Shown here in pieces: positions 26,214 to 31,802 of a stretch of 64,000 nucleotides of DNA. The DNA is from Psychrobacter luti. GTDB lineage: Bacteria; Pseudomonadota; Gammaproteobacteria; Pseudomonadales; Moraxellaceae. The stretch is from the NCBI RefSeq assembly GCF_014192115.1, contig NZ_JACHXL010000003.1:1-64000 (forward strand). Reading direction: 5' to 3'. The stretch's first letter is position 1. Each line of letters begins with the position of its first letter. A model generated the notes under the pieces. That model saw only the letters and a program-made list of their open reading frames with translations, was not told the origin of the DNA and did not search any database. The position numbers were made by a program, and so were the translations under genes.

Positions 26214-26813
26214 ATGAGCTTATCTACCGAAAATAATGTAAGCCAAAAAGCCTTAGACGATGATTTATTTACTTTGTCGCCGCGTCATCCTGATAGTCGG
26301 CTTGAAGCGGATTGGTTGTTCTTATTCAACAAACTACCGCCAGATCAATGGTTTAGCGCAGATTATGCTTACAAAACATCGGGCTGGCTAAAAGTACATA
26401 CTAACATACGCAAGCGTCAACGTATCTTGACACAGATTAGTGAAGGTTATCAATCTGGCGATTACGACTGGTCAGCGTATCGCTCGCAGATGCTCAAGCG
26501 TATCAATATGCACGTGCTCAAACTGCATCAACATCATGGCGTTGAGGATGAGGGATTTTTTCCTGAGTTTATTAGGATGTATCCGCAGCTACAGGCAGGG
26601 TTTGAGATATTGGGTCGCGACCATTTACGCTTGGATGCGCTACTCGATAAGTTACAAGTGCAAAACGATATGCTGGCAAGAAGTGAGGTTGAGGATAAAG
26701 GACTTTCCGAGCAATTGCATCAAACCTTGATGGACGGAACCGACTTACTTTCGCAACATTTGACCGATGAGGAAGACTTGGTGATTCCGATTTTAGGGTT
26801 AAGGCAGGGTTAG
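26214..26813 (+). CDS. Hemerythrin HHE-domain protein
   Basis: Cytoplasmic four-helix protein likely binding a di-iron centre for oxygen, NO or peroxide sensing or storage. Candidate ligands in family order are the His-rich stretch LKLHQHHGVEDEGFFPEF (about residues 104-121), the GRDHLRLDALL helix near 137 and SQHLTDEEDLVIPIL near 181. 199 aa. The ATG at 26214 has TAAGGAC upstream; an in-frame TTG seven codons earlier is less likely. The exact set of metal ligands is inferred. Confidence 0.8.
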   Translation: MSLSTENNVSQKALDDDLFTLSPRHPDSRLEADWLFLFNKLPPDQWFSADYAYKTSGWLKVHTNIRKRQRILTQISEGYQSGDYDWSAYRSQMLKRINMHVLKLHQHHGVEDEGFFPEFIRMYPQLQAGFEILGRDHLRLDALLDKLQVQNDMLARSEVEDKGLSEQLHQTLMDGTDLLSQHLTDEEDLVIPILGLRQG

Positions 26814-26927
26814 GGGATGGATTTACCACTTGTAGAGTGCTTTCTATGCACTTTTTTTTAAAATTATTGTTGTTAGAGGTATTTATAACGTACTCTACTT
26901 CAAATGTCTTATTTCTGATAAAACCTC

Positions 26928-28229
26928 ATGTTCAAAAACATTAACATTAGACTGTTAATCGCTCTTATCTCAATGATGGTACTACCTTCATTCTATCAAA
27001 CAATTAGAGTGAATTTTCTCGGTGATTTGCCTAGTGACTCAGGAATAAATATTGCGAGTCAAATACTGTGGCTGAGTTTGATTTATGAGATAGCGCAAGA
27101 AGCCTTAATTTTGCCTTTATTCTATCTTTTCGGAAAATCTTTGTCTAATACAGAAGAATTTGAAAATAAAATTCAAACTGGGTTTATCGTTATCTTTGGT
27201 ATCATGGCTTTTCTGTCTGCAATTTTATTCATTTATTCACAAAATATTGTGATTTTTATGGAGCAGTCCAAGCAAATTATTGGACAAACGACGCAATATA
27301 TTCGCCTGGAAACCATAGCAATTATGTTTGCTACGCTAGTTAAGTATATGATGGTCGTTATCATTAGTTTAAATAAAGATAAGTATATCTATGGCTTGCT
27401 AGCAGTGCAGATGACTCTGTCTATATTATTAGATAGTGTGTTTTTCGGACCTTTTGAGTTTAGTTTGGATATGGGTGTTATCGGTATTGCTTGGACGAAT
27501 ATTATTGTCAATATAGCTATTTTACTAGCCACCTATATCCCTATACGACAACATGGATTGAAGCTTTTATCAATCAATCAAATGTCATTTACATGGATGA
27601 AAGAGTGGTGGACGACAGGTGTATTTTCAGGATTAGAATCGCTAGTCAGAAATATTGCTTTTATAGTCATGATTATAAAAATGATTAACATGGTTGAAGA
27701 GCAAGGCAATTACTGGGTAGCTAATAGCTTTATTTGGGGCTGGTTGTTATTACCTGCCTTAGCATTGTCCGAGTTGGTAAAAAGAGACGTTGGTGAAGAC
27801 GTAAAGAATATTGCCAAAAATACTAAAGGATATTTTTCACTAGGACTAATATTTGTCGCCATATGGTGTATTACCATTCCATTTTGGCATAGCTTTTTTG
27901 CGAACGTTATGAATGTTCAGGACATAAAAACGGTTATGTATATTGTTGGAGTACAGACAGTATTTTATTTTGTATTTATATTTAATAATAGTATTTTAGA
28001 CGCCACTTTATACGGTTTGGGTAAAACGAAATATATGTTCATTCAGTCTCTTTGGGTCAACGTTGGCTACTATGGCACAATGTTTATTTTATATAAAGTA
28101 AGTGTATTTACACCGACACTGTTAAATATATGCTTTATGTTCGGATTTGGTATATTGATAGACCTAATTCCAACTGTTATCTTGTATAAGAAAGCGTTGC
28201 GCGAACAAAATATCAAAGTAATATGGTAG
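26928..28229 (+). CDS. MATE-like multidrug/Na+ efflux transporter
   Basis: 433 aa with about 12 hydrophobic segments in two halves, the MATE (NorM) arrangement. Both halves begin with a helix containing acidic and Gln/Asn residues (IYEIAQEALILP near 58 and SGLESLVRNIAF near 236). It is visibly richer in Ile, Lys, Asn and AT-rich codons than its neighbours, suggesting acquisition. The ribosome site is weak. It opens the accessory pocket before parC, and a transposase remnant starts five bases after its stop. The substrate is unknown. Confidence 0.7.
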   Translation: MFKNINIRLLIALISMMVLPSFYQTIRVNFLGDLPSDSGINIASQILWLSLIYEIAQEALILPLFYLFGKSLSNTEEFENKIQTGFIVIFGIMAFLSAILFIYSQNIVIFMEQSKQIIGQTTQYIRLETIAIMFATLVKYMMVVIISLNKDKYIYGLLAVQMTLSILLDSVFFGPFEFSLDMGVIGIAWTNIIVNIAILLATYIPIRQHGLKLLSINQMSFTWMKEWWTTGVFSGLESLVRNIAFIVMIIKMINMVEEQGNYWVANSFIWGWLLLPALALSELVKRDVGEDVKNIAKNTKGYFSLGLIFVAIWCITIPFWHSFFANVMNVQDIKTVMYIVGVQTVFYFVFIFNNSILDATLYGLGKTKYMFIQSLWVNVGYYGTMFILYKVSVFTPTLLNICFMFGFGILIDLIPTVILYKKALREQNIKVIW

Positions 28230-28234
28230 CTTGA

Positions 28235-28404
28235 GACAGCTATCAAAGTCGTATAGATTATATTCATTACAACGCGGTTAAACATGGTTATGTCGCGCGT
28301 CCTATTGATTGGCCTTATTCAACGTTTCAAAATATGTGGAAGATGAGGTTTATATTTCTGATTGGGGTGGGGTAGGTATTGATGGGATTGAGATTGATTT
28401 TTAG
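28235..28404 (+). pseudogene. C-terminal remnant of a REP-associated tyrosine transposase (RAYT)
   Basis: Translation gives SYQSRIDYIHYNAVKHGYV then ARPIDWPYSTFQ, the highly conserved C-terminus of the RAYT/TnpA_REP family. The frame then shifts by one missing base near 28331 and continues YVEDEVYISDWGGVGIDGIE to a stop at 28404. The catalytic HUH part and most of the gene are absent, so it is non-functional. A REP sequence follows 30 bases downstream, as is usual for RAYT genes. Confidence 0.8.
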
Positions 28405-28433
28405 TTCAAGAGTTATTTTTTTATCATAGTTTT

Positions 28434-28456
28434 CTGTGCTAAAAGCCCAGCCTACG
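28434..28456 (-). repeat. REP sequence, left copy (inverted)
   Basis: On the minus strand it reads CGTAGGCTGGGC, TTTTA, GCACAG: a GTAG tetranucleotide followed by an imperfect hairpin, the hallmark of RAYT-recognised REPs. It matches the right copy in 22 of 23 positions and points in the opposite direction. Confidence 0.75.
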
Positions 28457-28526
28457 CTTGGAGCCTTTCCTAAAAAGTGTGTAACTGCTCATAATTTTCC
28501 AATTCGGAACTTTACCATAGGTTTGA

Positions 28527-29048
28527 TTACTTAATCTTCTTGTATTTATGTACTTTTTCGCTGCACGTTTCATATAAATAAATAGAACCAAAGACTTTCT
28601 GTTCTTGCATCTGAATTTCAAAACCTGTAGAAAAATGGTTTTCTATAACATTTATGTCAAAGAATGGACCAAATAAGCCAACAAGAAGTATGCCACTTCC
28701 ATGTAAATTAGCTAGCTCGATCATTGTACTTTTAGTTAACTTTTTTTTGATAACTGACTCAACTCGTTCAGAAGTGATTGCATCAGGATCTATAAATAGA
28801 CCACTTTCAGACGGTTGATGTGTTTTATCATGAGCAGCATAAGAAGTAATACTTTTAGCAACACTATCACTGAAAAAAGCGTCTGTAATCTCTATCCAAG
28901 TTTTATTATTATCAATTTCAACAAAAGCATCTGGTGGATCAGGCCTATTCTCAACTTTTAAAATTGAACCTTTTTCTTTTATGTAATCCTTAAAAGTGCT
29001 TAGAACACTATTTTCGTGAGCATCTTTCAGATCTTTTCGTAATACCAT
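28527..29048 (-). CDS. Hypothetical protein with PD-(D/E)XK-like signature
   Basis: 173 aa, AT-rich, not assigned to a named family. After an N-terminal helix with Glu12 comes NRPDPPDAFVEID (Asp40), a turn, then TWIEITD (Glu53). This beta-hairpin pattern resembles the D...E-x-K core of PD-(D/E)XK nucleases with Thr in place of the last Lys, a variation I recall from related uncharacterised proteins. The rest is mixed alpha/beta with a Lys-rich end. The ATG at 29048 has only a weak ribosome site. It is bracketed by inverted REPs and next to a RAYT remnant, so probably acquired. Nuclease function is a hypothesis; a toxin or defence role is possible but not shown. Confidence 0.55.
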   Translation of the reverse strand: MVLRKDLKDAHENSVLSTFKDYIKEKGSILKVENRPDPPDAFVEIDNNKTWIEITDAFFSDSVAKSITSYAAHDKTHQPSESGLFIDPDAITSERVESVIKKKLTKSTMIELANLHGSGILLVGLFGPFFDINVIENHFSTGFEIQMQEQKVFGSIYLYETCSEKVHKYKKIK

Positions 29049-29079
29049 TTCTAATACCTATGACAAACTGAGTAGCAAA

Positions 29080-29102
29080 CGTAGGCTGGGCTTTTAGCCC
29101 AG
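29080..29102 (+). repeat. REP sequence, right copy
   Basis: GTAG followed by a perfect hairpin GCTGGGC-TTTTA-GCCCAGC (hairpin extends to 29103). It lies 30 bases past the parC stop, so its hairpin could also influence the 3' end of the parC transcript. Confidence 0.8.
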
Positions 29103-29132
29103 CTTTCCTAAAATCTAAGAACCGAAACTAAA

Positions 29133-31454
29133 TCACCCAACCTCAACACTCGTCACATTCTGAAAGCCTCTTGGTAACTGCCCACCACGATTACCACGTG
29201 TGCCAGTATAATTTGCTAAATCATTAGGCTTTAGCGTCACATGGCGTTTGCCAGCGGTAATGATTAAGCTGTCTTGCTGACTGAGTGGCGTGATAGCAAG
29301 CACCTCTTCACCGTCTTTTAATTTAATCAGCTTATTACCTTTACCACGAGCCTGTTCAGGCAAATCATCAAGAGCAAATATCAATAGATATCCCGCATTG
29401 GTCACGACAGCAACATGGTCAGGCATCGCGCTTGCGCTGCTATTTTCCCCTTCGGCATTTTCGTTATTAGCATTGGCAGTCATATCCGCTGGCGCATCGA
29501 TACGCGCAACAGGTAGCAAGCGACTATCAGCTGCTAGATTGATGATGTTTTTACCTGCTTTTTGATTGCTATCAAGATTGCCAATCGTATTGATAAAACC
29601 ATAACCTGTTGAGCTGGCGAGGATGATGCGTTTATCGTCTGTACCCGTTAATAGCTGCTCAAAGCTGGCACCTGCTGGCGGCTTTAACACACTGGTTAGT
29701 GGATCGCCTTGACCACGAGCGGAGGCGAGGCTATGGGCGTCGATACTATAGCTGCGTCCAGTGCTATCGAGCACGTAGATTCTCTCGTTAGATTTAGCGC
29801 GGACGTGGGCTTGGTAGCTATCACCTGAGCGATAGGTCATGCCAGCGGCATCGACGTCATGGCCTTTGGCAGCGCGAATCCAGCCCGCTTTCGATAGGAT
29901 AGCGGTCACAGGCTCGCTTGGTACGAGGTCAGACTCTTTGAGTGCTTGCGCTTCCTCACGTTCTGCTAATTGTGATACCCGCTCATTGCCGTGTTCCTTC
30001 ATATCGGTATTGAGCTCATCAATCATTAGATTGGTCAAGCTGTCAGGGTTATCCAAGTATTCTTGAATGATAGCGCGTTCGGCAGCAAGCTCATCTTGCT
30101 CACGGCGTAGCTCAATCTCTTCTAGCTTTGCCAATTGGCGCAGACGAATATCCAAGATAGCATTGGCTTGTATCTCAGTCAGGTCATAATCTTGCATTAA
30201 CGACAGTTTTGGATCGTCTTCTTCACGAATGATACGAATGACTTCATCGATATTCAGATAAGCAATCAGCAAACCTGCAAGAATATGCAAGCGCTTATCG
30301 ATTTTATCGAGGCGATATTGCAAGCGTCGCGTGACTACTGAGCGGCGACAGACGAGCCATTCTTCGAGGATTTCTTTGAGGTTTTTGACCTGCGGTTTAC
30401 CATTAAGGCCAATCATGTTCATATTGACGCGGTAATTGCTTTCAAGATCCGTACTGGCAAACAGATGACTCATTACTCGCTGAACATCGACGCGGGTAGA
30501 TTTTAGCTCTAAGACGATACGGCAAGCATTTTCATGATCTGATTCATCATGAATATCAACAATCCACGGCAGCTTTTTATCAATCATCAGCTTAGCGATT
30601 TGTTCTTGAATCTTATTGCCTGAGACTTGATAAGGAAGCGCGTCGATGATGACGAGATTTTTCTCTTTTGGGTCAATGTGGAAAGTTGCGCGCATTTTAT
30701 AGCTGCCACGTCCGCTTTCGTACATCGCCTGCAAGTCTTTTTTACTGGTGATGATTTCAGCTGGAGTTGGCAAGTCAGGCGCTGGTATCGATTGGGTTAA
30801 TTGTTTAACCGATAACTCAGGATTTTTTAGCAAACGAATAGCCGCACGTACCACTTCATTAAGGTTATGCGGCGGGATATCGGTTGCCATACCAACGGCG
30901 ATACCTGTTGTACCATTTAATAAAATATTTGGCAGGCGGGCTGGCAGGGTAGTTGGCTCCTGCATGGTGCCATCGAAATTATCTTGCCAATCGACTGTGC
31001 CTTGTCCGAGTTCTGCAAGCAAGGTATTGGCGTAAGCAGACATTTTGGCTTCGGTATAACGCATCGCCGCGAACGACTTGGGATCATCAGGGCTACCCCA
31101 GTTACCTTGACCAGTAATCAGCGGATAGCGATAACTAAACGGCTGCGCCATCAGTACCATCGCCTCATAACAGGCACTATCACCATGTGGATGGTATTTG
31201 CCCAGCACATCACCGACCGTACGCGCAGACTTTTTCGCTTTCGCCGTCGATTTTAGTCCCAGCTCACTCATGGCATAGACGATACGGCGCTGGACAGGTT
31301 TTAGACCGTCAGCGATATTAGGCAACGCCCGATCCATGATGACGTACATGGCGTAGTTGAGATAAGCTTGTTCAGTGAATTCCGCCACGGAGCGGGTATC
31401 CATCGGTTCATTTGGGATAATGGGCGTAATGGTATTATCAATAACATCGGACAT
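29133..31454 (-). CDS. parC: DNA topoisomerase IV subunit A
   Basis: Breakage-reunion subunit of topoisomerase IV, which decatenates daughter chromosomes. The conserved start region [20 protein letters not shown], the quinolone-resistance region [13 protein letters not shown] and the catalytic tyrosine in [10 protein letters not shown] are all present. The QRDR Ser and Glu match the usual quinolone-susceptible form. The C-terminal half is the beta-propeller DNA-wrapping domain with an Asn/Ala/Ser loop near residue 690. 773 aa from the ATG at 31454; longer upstream frames encode no family sequence. parE is not adjacent in this window. Confidence 0.96.
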
Positions 31455-31802
31455 AAAATAGGTTTCACTTATCAGTTTTAATAGGTATAAATAATTGGTG
31501 CAAGCATGCAAATAGGATAGTGCTATCGTAAAGGATATTGGCAAAATTAAAAAGGTATAAGTCAGAATAGACGACAGGTCGTGACGTGCTAGATATAGGT
31601 GACGATTGCGCCTTGGCTAATAGCTTTTACAAAATAAGATAAGTATAGTGAGTTAGACGCATATTGTTTGCTTTTTTACTAAGCGCCTGTTTTATAGGCT
31701 TCTATTCAATAGTGCTCAGCAATAATTATTATAAAGGCTTTAACACGGAACCGTTATCATCGAAATGTCTATCCAAGCCGTCTATCATATGGAGTAGCTA
31801 TT
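31455..31802. other. Divergent intergenic region, parC / VWA lipoprotein
   Basis: About 350 bases between divergent starts. A GGAG ribosome site for the right-hand gene lies at 31791-31794. No other element was recognised; promoters for both genes are presumed. Confidence 0.45.

Follow-up and report, generated by a model that had tools for sequence, protein, structure and literature searches.

A variable one-gene slot behind parC in Psychrobacter and the REP-RAYT-REP unit at its far edge

RAYTs are described as domesticated, housekeeping-like relatives of transposases, and their mode of spreading REPs as unsettled, in the portions of text available (PMC8266576). In a REPtron, a Y1_Tnp RAYT with an HUH motif is accompanied by inverted GTAG-hairpin REPs (PMC3733652, PMC8266576), and in a REPIN or BIME two inverted REPs of one type are separated by a short spacer (PMC3116915, PMC8266576). 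Core-flanked defence hotspots are likewise already known; in cDHS1 and cDHS2 of Pseudomonas aeruginosa, variable, partly defence-related genes of low GC lie between core genes, and homologous recombination via the core flanks has been proposed there (PMC10250203).

The locus reported here lies in a window of 64,000 nucleotides from Psychrobacter luti, in which an AT-rich gene beside parC is enclosed by two inverted REPs. Its unit resembles a REPtron in its Y1_Tnp RAYT with HUH motif and its inverted GTAG-hairpin REPs, and REP counts vary strongly between relatives in this genus; it differs in that a further REP of the same type stands across a variable gene, no such gene belonging to the REPtrons described in the text available (PMC3733652, PMC8266576). 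It shares with REPINs and BIMEs, as far as the excerpts describe them, the two inverted REPs of one type (PMC3116915, PMC8266576), but here a complete gene takes the place of the short spacer, the pair spans 0.4-1.3 kb with its heads pointing inward, and it is undispersed in the window's genome. Compared with the account of cDHS1 and cDHS2 available, the contents are similarly variable, but there is usually one gene, in a fixed orientation, with an edge at the parC stop and, in some genomes, a RAYT/REP unit (PMC10250203). The literature searched, part of it available as excerpts, yielded no paper on REP-bracketed genes beside RAYTs or on a parC-side hotspot in the genus, nor any account of a slot that takes a single gene in one orientation, lies at the parC stop and has a REPtron on its border.

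The reading that we hold to be probable is that a hotspot for single genes, some of them related to defence, lies 3' of parC, that homologous recombination is the main way in which it is refilled, and that the REPtron lodges there as a guest. The window's gene is the current occupant of a one-gene slot immediately 3' of parC, in which lineages hold different, mostly AT-rich genes, nearly always in the direction of parC. Strains would swap occupants by recombining within the conserved 3' end of parC on one side and, on the other, within the RAYT/REP unit or whichever conserved gene comes next. In some lineages a REPtron (REP-RAYT-REP) lodges at the far edge of the slot and a solo REP lies just past the parC stop, which places a gene between the two within a pair of REPs that face inward; the REPtron of the window has decayed, with the outer REP and RAYT residues 1-123 lost. 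How hotspots for single defence genes are refilled calls for an explanation, and here RAYTs and a hotspot meet at one site; with 32 occupant families in 103 genomes and readable edges, the refilling question becomes testable.

The bracketed gene and its surroundings

The features of the window that bear on the slot are the following, in order of position.

26928..28229, plus strand: MATE transporter gene, the far neighbour of the slot (NCBIfam MATE_efflux1, E 2.8e-161)
28241..28398, plus strand: RAYT remnant (tblastn with the intact RAYT of genome G070)
28433..28455, minus strand: REP on the RAYT side, two mismatches to the 23-mer, GTAG toward the gene
28461..28495, no strand: IS-end remnant of 35 bp, between the occupant gene and the left REP
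28465..28475, plus strand: left copy of an 11-bp repeat, inside the IS-end remnant
28527..29048, minus strand: slot occupant gene, 173 aa, AT-rich
29081..29103, plus strand: REP on the parC side, exact 23-mer, 29 bp from the parC stop
29103..29113, plus strand: right copy of the 11-bp repeat, absent beside the parC-side REP of G070
Stop at 29133, minus strand: 3' end of parC, the fixed edge of the slot, where homology to near relatives breaks
29133..31544, minus strand: parC (NCBIfam parC_Gneg, E 1e-302), the ORF as listed, whose true start may be internal

The arms of an inverted repeat at 28434-28460 and 29076-29102 are 93% complementary. The 23-mer GTAGGCTGGGCTTTTAGCCCAGC, a GTAG-hairpin REP, stands exactly at 29081-29103 (+) and with two mismatches at 28433-28455 (-), the GTAG heads of both pointing inward, at the gene. 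The first-pass annotation had described this inverted pair around a single AT-rich gene, with a frameshifted RAYT C-terminus outside the left REP, and this description stands: the 23-mer had no match in 100 shuffled windows and has only two copies within three mismatches in the whole assembly (2.97 Mb, 17 contigs), and the match of 22/23 bases holds in the frame then used (28434-28456 against 29080-29102). The RAYT remnant lies 34 bp from the left REP and aligns, in two frames, with residues 124-153 and 152-176 of the RAYT (178 aa) found in G070; residues 1-123 and an outer REP were not found in the window, and a Y1 transposase profile had no match in the window's genome at E<=0.001. An 11-bp repeat, CTTTCCTAAAA, had also been noted to the right of each REP. 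It is indeed present, within the window at 28465 and 29103 only, but is probably a coincidence and not a footprint of transposition, because its left copy lies within the IS-end match and an alignment with G070 lacks it beside the parC-side REP of that genome. The IS-end remnant itself matches, at 30/35 bases, one end of an element on contig C4 of the window's own genome (G000 among the compared genomes; locus L002), which carries two ORFs resembling transposase pieces, as judged by eye.

The occupant gene has a GC content of 0.318 against 0.432 for the window, and 0.8% of 522-bp windows are equally AT-rich. It is present in one copy in its own genome, and its family occurs in 2/145 genomes (own and relatives), those of the window and of G070, with 79% identity and REPs in both. 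G070, of the same genus, carries the same gene at the same place together with a third REP, in the order parC - REP(-) - gene - REP(+) - intact 178-aa RAYT - REP(-) - MATE, with parC taken as the plus strand; its RAYT matches Y1_Tnp at E 1.5e-7 and has an HVH motif at residue 59.

The product of the occupant gene gave no convincing match in Pfam, NCBIfam or PADLOC. Its predicted fold weakly resembles nucleases of the PD-(D/E)XK superfamily, to which the XisH-like proteins belong. D40 and E53 are invariant, but the motif reads ExT and not the D...ExK of the active site in 37/37 aligned proteins, the usual position of the catalytic lysine being T55 in all of them; this replacement, and the lack of a sequence-family match, set it apart from XisH-like and other PD-(D/E)XK proteins. 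The gene may have a role in defence. Relatives occur also in Vibrio, Shewanella and Pseudoalteromonas. On their account an integron cassette was considered and rejected, no attC-like end being visible by eye. A general tie of the family to RAYTs was likewise rejected, since no tblastn match of the RAYT fell below E 0.28 at the loci of the family (15 loci of other bacteria and one viral contig, several of them short and near relatives perhaps omitted). Around the relatives in these 15 bacterial loci and the viral contig no REP-like inverted repeat was found; in three nearly identical loci of Halomonas type, an inverted repeat of 13 bp stands some 1 kb away.

A slot at the parC stop across the genus

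parC was found in 103/105 genomes, and the stretch behind it was examined in these 103 (median 4.8 kb, shortest 176 bp). When ORFs of at least 90 aa were clustered, a hand-made list of recurrent families was set aside, and a distance of at most 500 bp from parC was allowed, the first gene was non-recurrent and co-directional with parC in 62 of the 103 genomes and opposite to it in 6; a recurrent gene came first in 30, the gene lay more than 500 bp away in 1, and no ORF preceded the contig end in 4. The 62 co-directional occupants fall into 32 families. As a position control we used a second rule, by which a rare family is one present in at most 6/103 genomes, with at least 90 aa and RAYTs ignored. 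Rare-family genes then stood at the first place after parC in 69/99 genomes, against 20/97 at the second, 9/92 at the third and 11/75 at the fourth. Their excess is special to the first place, and a fixed core flank with variable contents, the trait of a core hotspot, is found here. At the first place 62 rare genes run with parC and 7 against it, compared with 19 and 27 at later places; read-through from parC may favour this bias. Their GC content at the first place averages 0.354 (n=69), against 0.422 for families in at least 17 genomes (n=253); three families with GC over 0.40 (c17, c90 and c100) may be ordinary genes of deep lineages rather than occupants.

Beyond the genus, a script assigned the parC end in 14/20 genomes of genus g63, where the next gene belongs to the same family (556-593 aa) in 14/14. 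In genus g58 it did so in 16/18, with an apparently variable gene behind parC, and in genus g55 in 2/2, some of the assignments in both looking wrong. In three genomes of g58, which belongs to the same bacterial family (L242, L244, L247), an AT-rich gene of 315-325 aa starts 20 bp behind parC, and hence the slot may exist there too.

Several occupants appear, by similarity, to be of anti-phage defence types. With one representative per family, PADLOC matched 9/32 slot families at E<=1e-5, against 1/18 control families, which were rare families at later places. The excess is modest (p about 0.055 in a one-sided hypergeometric test calculated by hand); all 32 slot families were scanned, the first ten picked as defence-looking and the others added later, whereas the controls are 18 of the 31 rare later-place families, taken in random order. 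The 23/32 slot families with no PADLOC match at this threshold, the window's included, make the slot a short list of candidate defence genes, and turnover of defence genes may be what drives the exchange. A Pfam scan of 29/32 slot families, c17, c90 and c100 being left out, gave a recombinase match in 0/29 (one member each).

Exchange of occupants

Occupants turn over much within the genus. On a parC tree (330 bp, 103 rows, a quick method with many weak branches), the minimum number of changes was 6 for RAYT presence, 9 for a REP at parC, 29 for filled or empty and 57 for the occupant family, with contig ends and opposite-strand genes scored as empty and the REP at parC taken as present in 14 genomes listed by hand. 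Where near relatives differ in slot contents, their homology breaks off between -10 and +4 relative to the parC stop in the 12 pairs compared; 11 of these were near-neighbour pairs chosen by eye, the other was G000/G006, and a further chosen pair shared its occupant family. Homology of the window to the more distant G049, G151, G007, G018 and G013 likewise ends at the parC stop, that to G067 extends 56 bp beyond it, through a shared REP, and that to G070 continues through the shared gene. G006, the nearest relative of the window by parC (93% nt), has neither the window's gene nor RAYT or MATE in the stretch examined; its homology to the window breaks off at the parC stop and is regained 2.3 kb further along. 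The block at 26255-28235 (1981 bp), which contains MATE and the gene next to it, shares 93% identity with G067, against 77% for parC, so this block has its own history and, together with the break to G006 at the parC stop, indicates that the window is a mosaic.

Sister genomes G034 and G030 (parC 95-96%, RAYT 96%) hold different slot genes, and 94% identity between them resumes 4 bp before the GTAG of the REP and runs on through the RAYT. In three pairs the tail of parC has been transferred together with the gene. Between G150 and G063, identity is 80% in parC, 97% in its last 90 bp, 96% in the gene and 79% downstream; the corresponding values are 81%, 93%, 96% and 78% for G063 and G046, and 85%, 96%, 97% and 73% for G026 and G051. 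Most other same-family pairs are too diverged for such a signal, and some, for example G146-G157 and G081-G154, show no identity jump in the parC tail. These identity patterns suggest that recombination is the general exchange route, and natural transformation has been reported for a Psychrobacter isolate, in the part of the source available (PMC3364145).

Further down the stretch examined, copies of the genome's own parC tail occur in 2/103 genomes. That of G034 (L107), 56 bp at 95%, or 61 bp at 89% against G030, lies behind the REPtron and is followed by another slot-type gene; that of G001 (L176), 48 bp at 92%, lies behind the slot gene.

REPs, RAYTs and the competing explanations

A RAYT or its remains occur in the slot of 9/103 genomes (G000, G070, G022, G052, G071, G034, G030, G078, G031), with weak RAYT-like pieces farther out in G013, G033 and G089; anywhere in the genome, RAYT relatives are found in 41/105 (E<=1e-5). 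The nine slots contain eight gene families, and 7/8 of the genomes other than the window's have a family different from its own. REPs flank the RAYT on both sides in G070, G022, G052, G071, G034 and G030, and G078, G031 and the window retain one of the two. On the RAYT side the REP begins 54-62 bp from the 3' end of the RAYT in the eight other RAYT genomes, and it seems to belong to the RAYT unit. Inheritance of the RAYT together with parC was rejected: the identities of the two do not track each other (Spearman 0.23, p 0.32, over 21 pairs of 7 copies), and therefore neither pure descent nor recent spread is demonstrated. In 13/103 genomes a parC-side REP (<=3 mismatches) follows the parC stop at a distance of 14-34 bp; six of these genomes have a RAYT and seven lack one (G036, G011, G067, G080, G158, G155, G084), so this REP seems to be part of the parC 3' end, and the other REP part of the RAYT unit.

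Among the 62 occupied slots, both REPs are present at <=3 mismatches in 6 (G000, G070, G052, G071, G078, G031; five families), at <=5 mismatches in 7 of six families, which adds G011 with an Mrr family, and at a looser cut (<=8 and <=7) in 12; the outward arrangement occurs in 0/62 at <=3 mismatches. Other genes thus do sit inside the same inward pair, as the first-pass annotation had proposed to look for, and a variant case is found elsewhere, in G077. When <=7 mismatches are allowed, a REP(+) is found no more than 75 bp past the occupant in 16/61 slots, against 13/293 recurrent genes (Fisher p 1e-6). In genomes without RAYT the figures are 9/52 against 8/274 (p 3e-4), and 4/52 against 7/274 at <=5 mismatches (p 0.08); these p values are too small because the genomes are related and not independent. 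In G070, G026 and G051 the GTAG of the REP provides the stop codon of the gene. Together with the swap edge of G034/G030 at the GTAG, the enrichment in genomes without RAYT suggests that the REPs may not be passive.

One alternative, which we judge unlikely, is that gene and REPs together form a composite element that the RAYT mobilises as a single strand. Read on the coding strand of the RAYT, the far REP and the one beside parC form a direct repeat (GTAG-hairpin - RAYT - gene - GTAG-hairpin). Such a geometry is that of an IS200/IS605-like unit, and its excision would leave a solo REP at parC, which is what the seven genomes without RAYT have at the same place. The intact arrangement in G070, the REP pairs around five different families, the edge 4 bp before the GTAG in G034/G030 and the same arrangement at a second site in G077 would fit as well. 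But both REPs are absent, at <=8 mismatches, from 39/62 occupied slots, and the parC tail travelled with the gene in three pairs. Moreover, one family is found at parC both with and without REPs: the SEC-C family has them in G052 and in decayed form in G012, and none at <=8 mismatches in G057, G058, G081 and G154. A gene at parC without REPs, which had been named as evidence against mobilisation, is thus found for SEC-C, though not for the window's family. These three observations indicate that the REPs bracket a slot, and not a demonstrated transposon. The mobile REP-gene-REP unit inferred earlier also fails to show dispersed copies, the genome having one copy of the window's gene and two REPs within three mismatches, and the six close SEC-C copies in 105 genomes all stand at parC; off parC there are only two 50%-identical relatives (L210 and L211), with no REP at <=7 mismatches in the sequence stretch around each gene. 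As to an exact REP-to-REP presence or absence of the gene, relatives have a solo REP at parC, but G006, the nearest by parC, diverges from the window over the 2.3 kb that follow the stop. The inward heads, finally, are opposite to the close plus-then-minus doublets (e.g., in G022), although wider minus-then-plus pairs also exist (G148).

The sharp edges at the parC stop in the 12 near pairs would also be expected if an unrecognised element or integrase targeted the 3' end of parC as its attachment site and restored the gene tail, as site-specific elements do at the ends of tRNA or core genes. The own-tail copies in G034 and G001 and a 116-bp copy of the tail of a ferredoxin-like (fdx-like) gene behind a gene in G146 point the same way, and yet this seems unlikely: unrelated slot contents would give equally sharp edges, 101/103 sites have no tail copy in the stretch examined (of the lengths given above), occupants are mostly single genes, and the Pfam-scanned families lack a recombinase match. 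The tail copies in G034, G001 and G146 look like joins with one homologous and one non-homologous end. That ordinary REPs inserted downstream of both parC and the occupant, leaving the bracket meaningless, we think improbable. In other bacteria REPs lie mostly downstream of, and close to, coding 3' ends, according to the portion of the source available (PMC3733652), and 55/62 slot genes lack a pair at <=5 mismatches; against this stand the fixed orientation (6 inward, 0 outward), the near-constant distance of one REP from the RAYT and the excess of REPs 3' of slot genes over recurrent genes, in genomes that are not independent. A part for the REPtron as a docking port, in which the RAYT would cut single-stranded DNA at the GTAG edge and at the parC-stop REP and join the ends of an incoming gene, is also improbable. 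Cutting at GTAG fits the G034/G030 edge, the fixed REP orientation and the second bracketed gene in G077; if the port were real, RAYTs would help a lineage to swap single defence genes, a host function for a housekeeping-like transposase. The probable reading remains the hotspot refilled mainly by recombination.

The two SEC-C relatives at L210 and L211 adjoin the same 312-aa gene in two genomes, which is perhaps another hotspot. RAYTs recur at a second site in the genus, near mutS-like and ferredoxin-like genes by eye (L081, L082, L085, L087, L089, L092); in G146 (L085) a 238-aa gene beside the RAYT lies between the fdx-like gene and the copy of its tail. At L083 a RAYT/REP unit lies between two antitoxin-like gene copies (by eye), and direct repeats are spaced there by about 1034 bp. 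The third RAYT site is that of G077 (L080, 809-2068), where behind a polA-like gene (by eye) a 183-aa gene is bracketed by variant REPs, in the order REP(-) at 809, ORF 862-1413, REP(+) at 1419, RAYT, REP(-).
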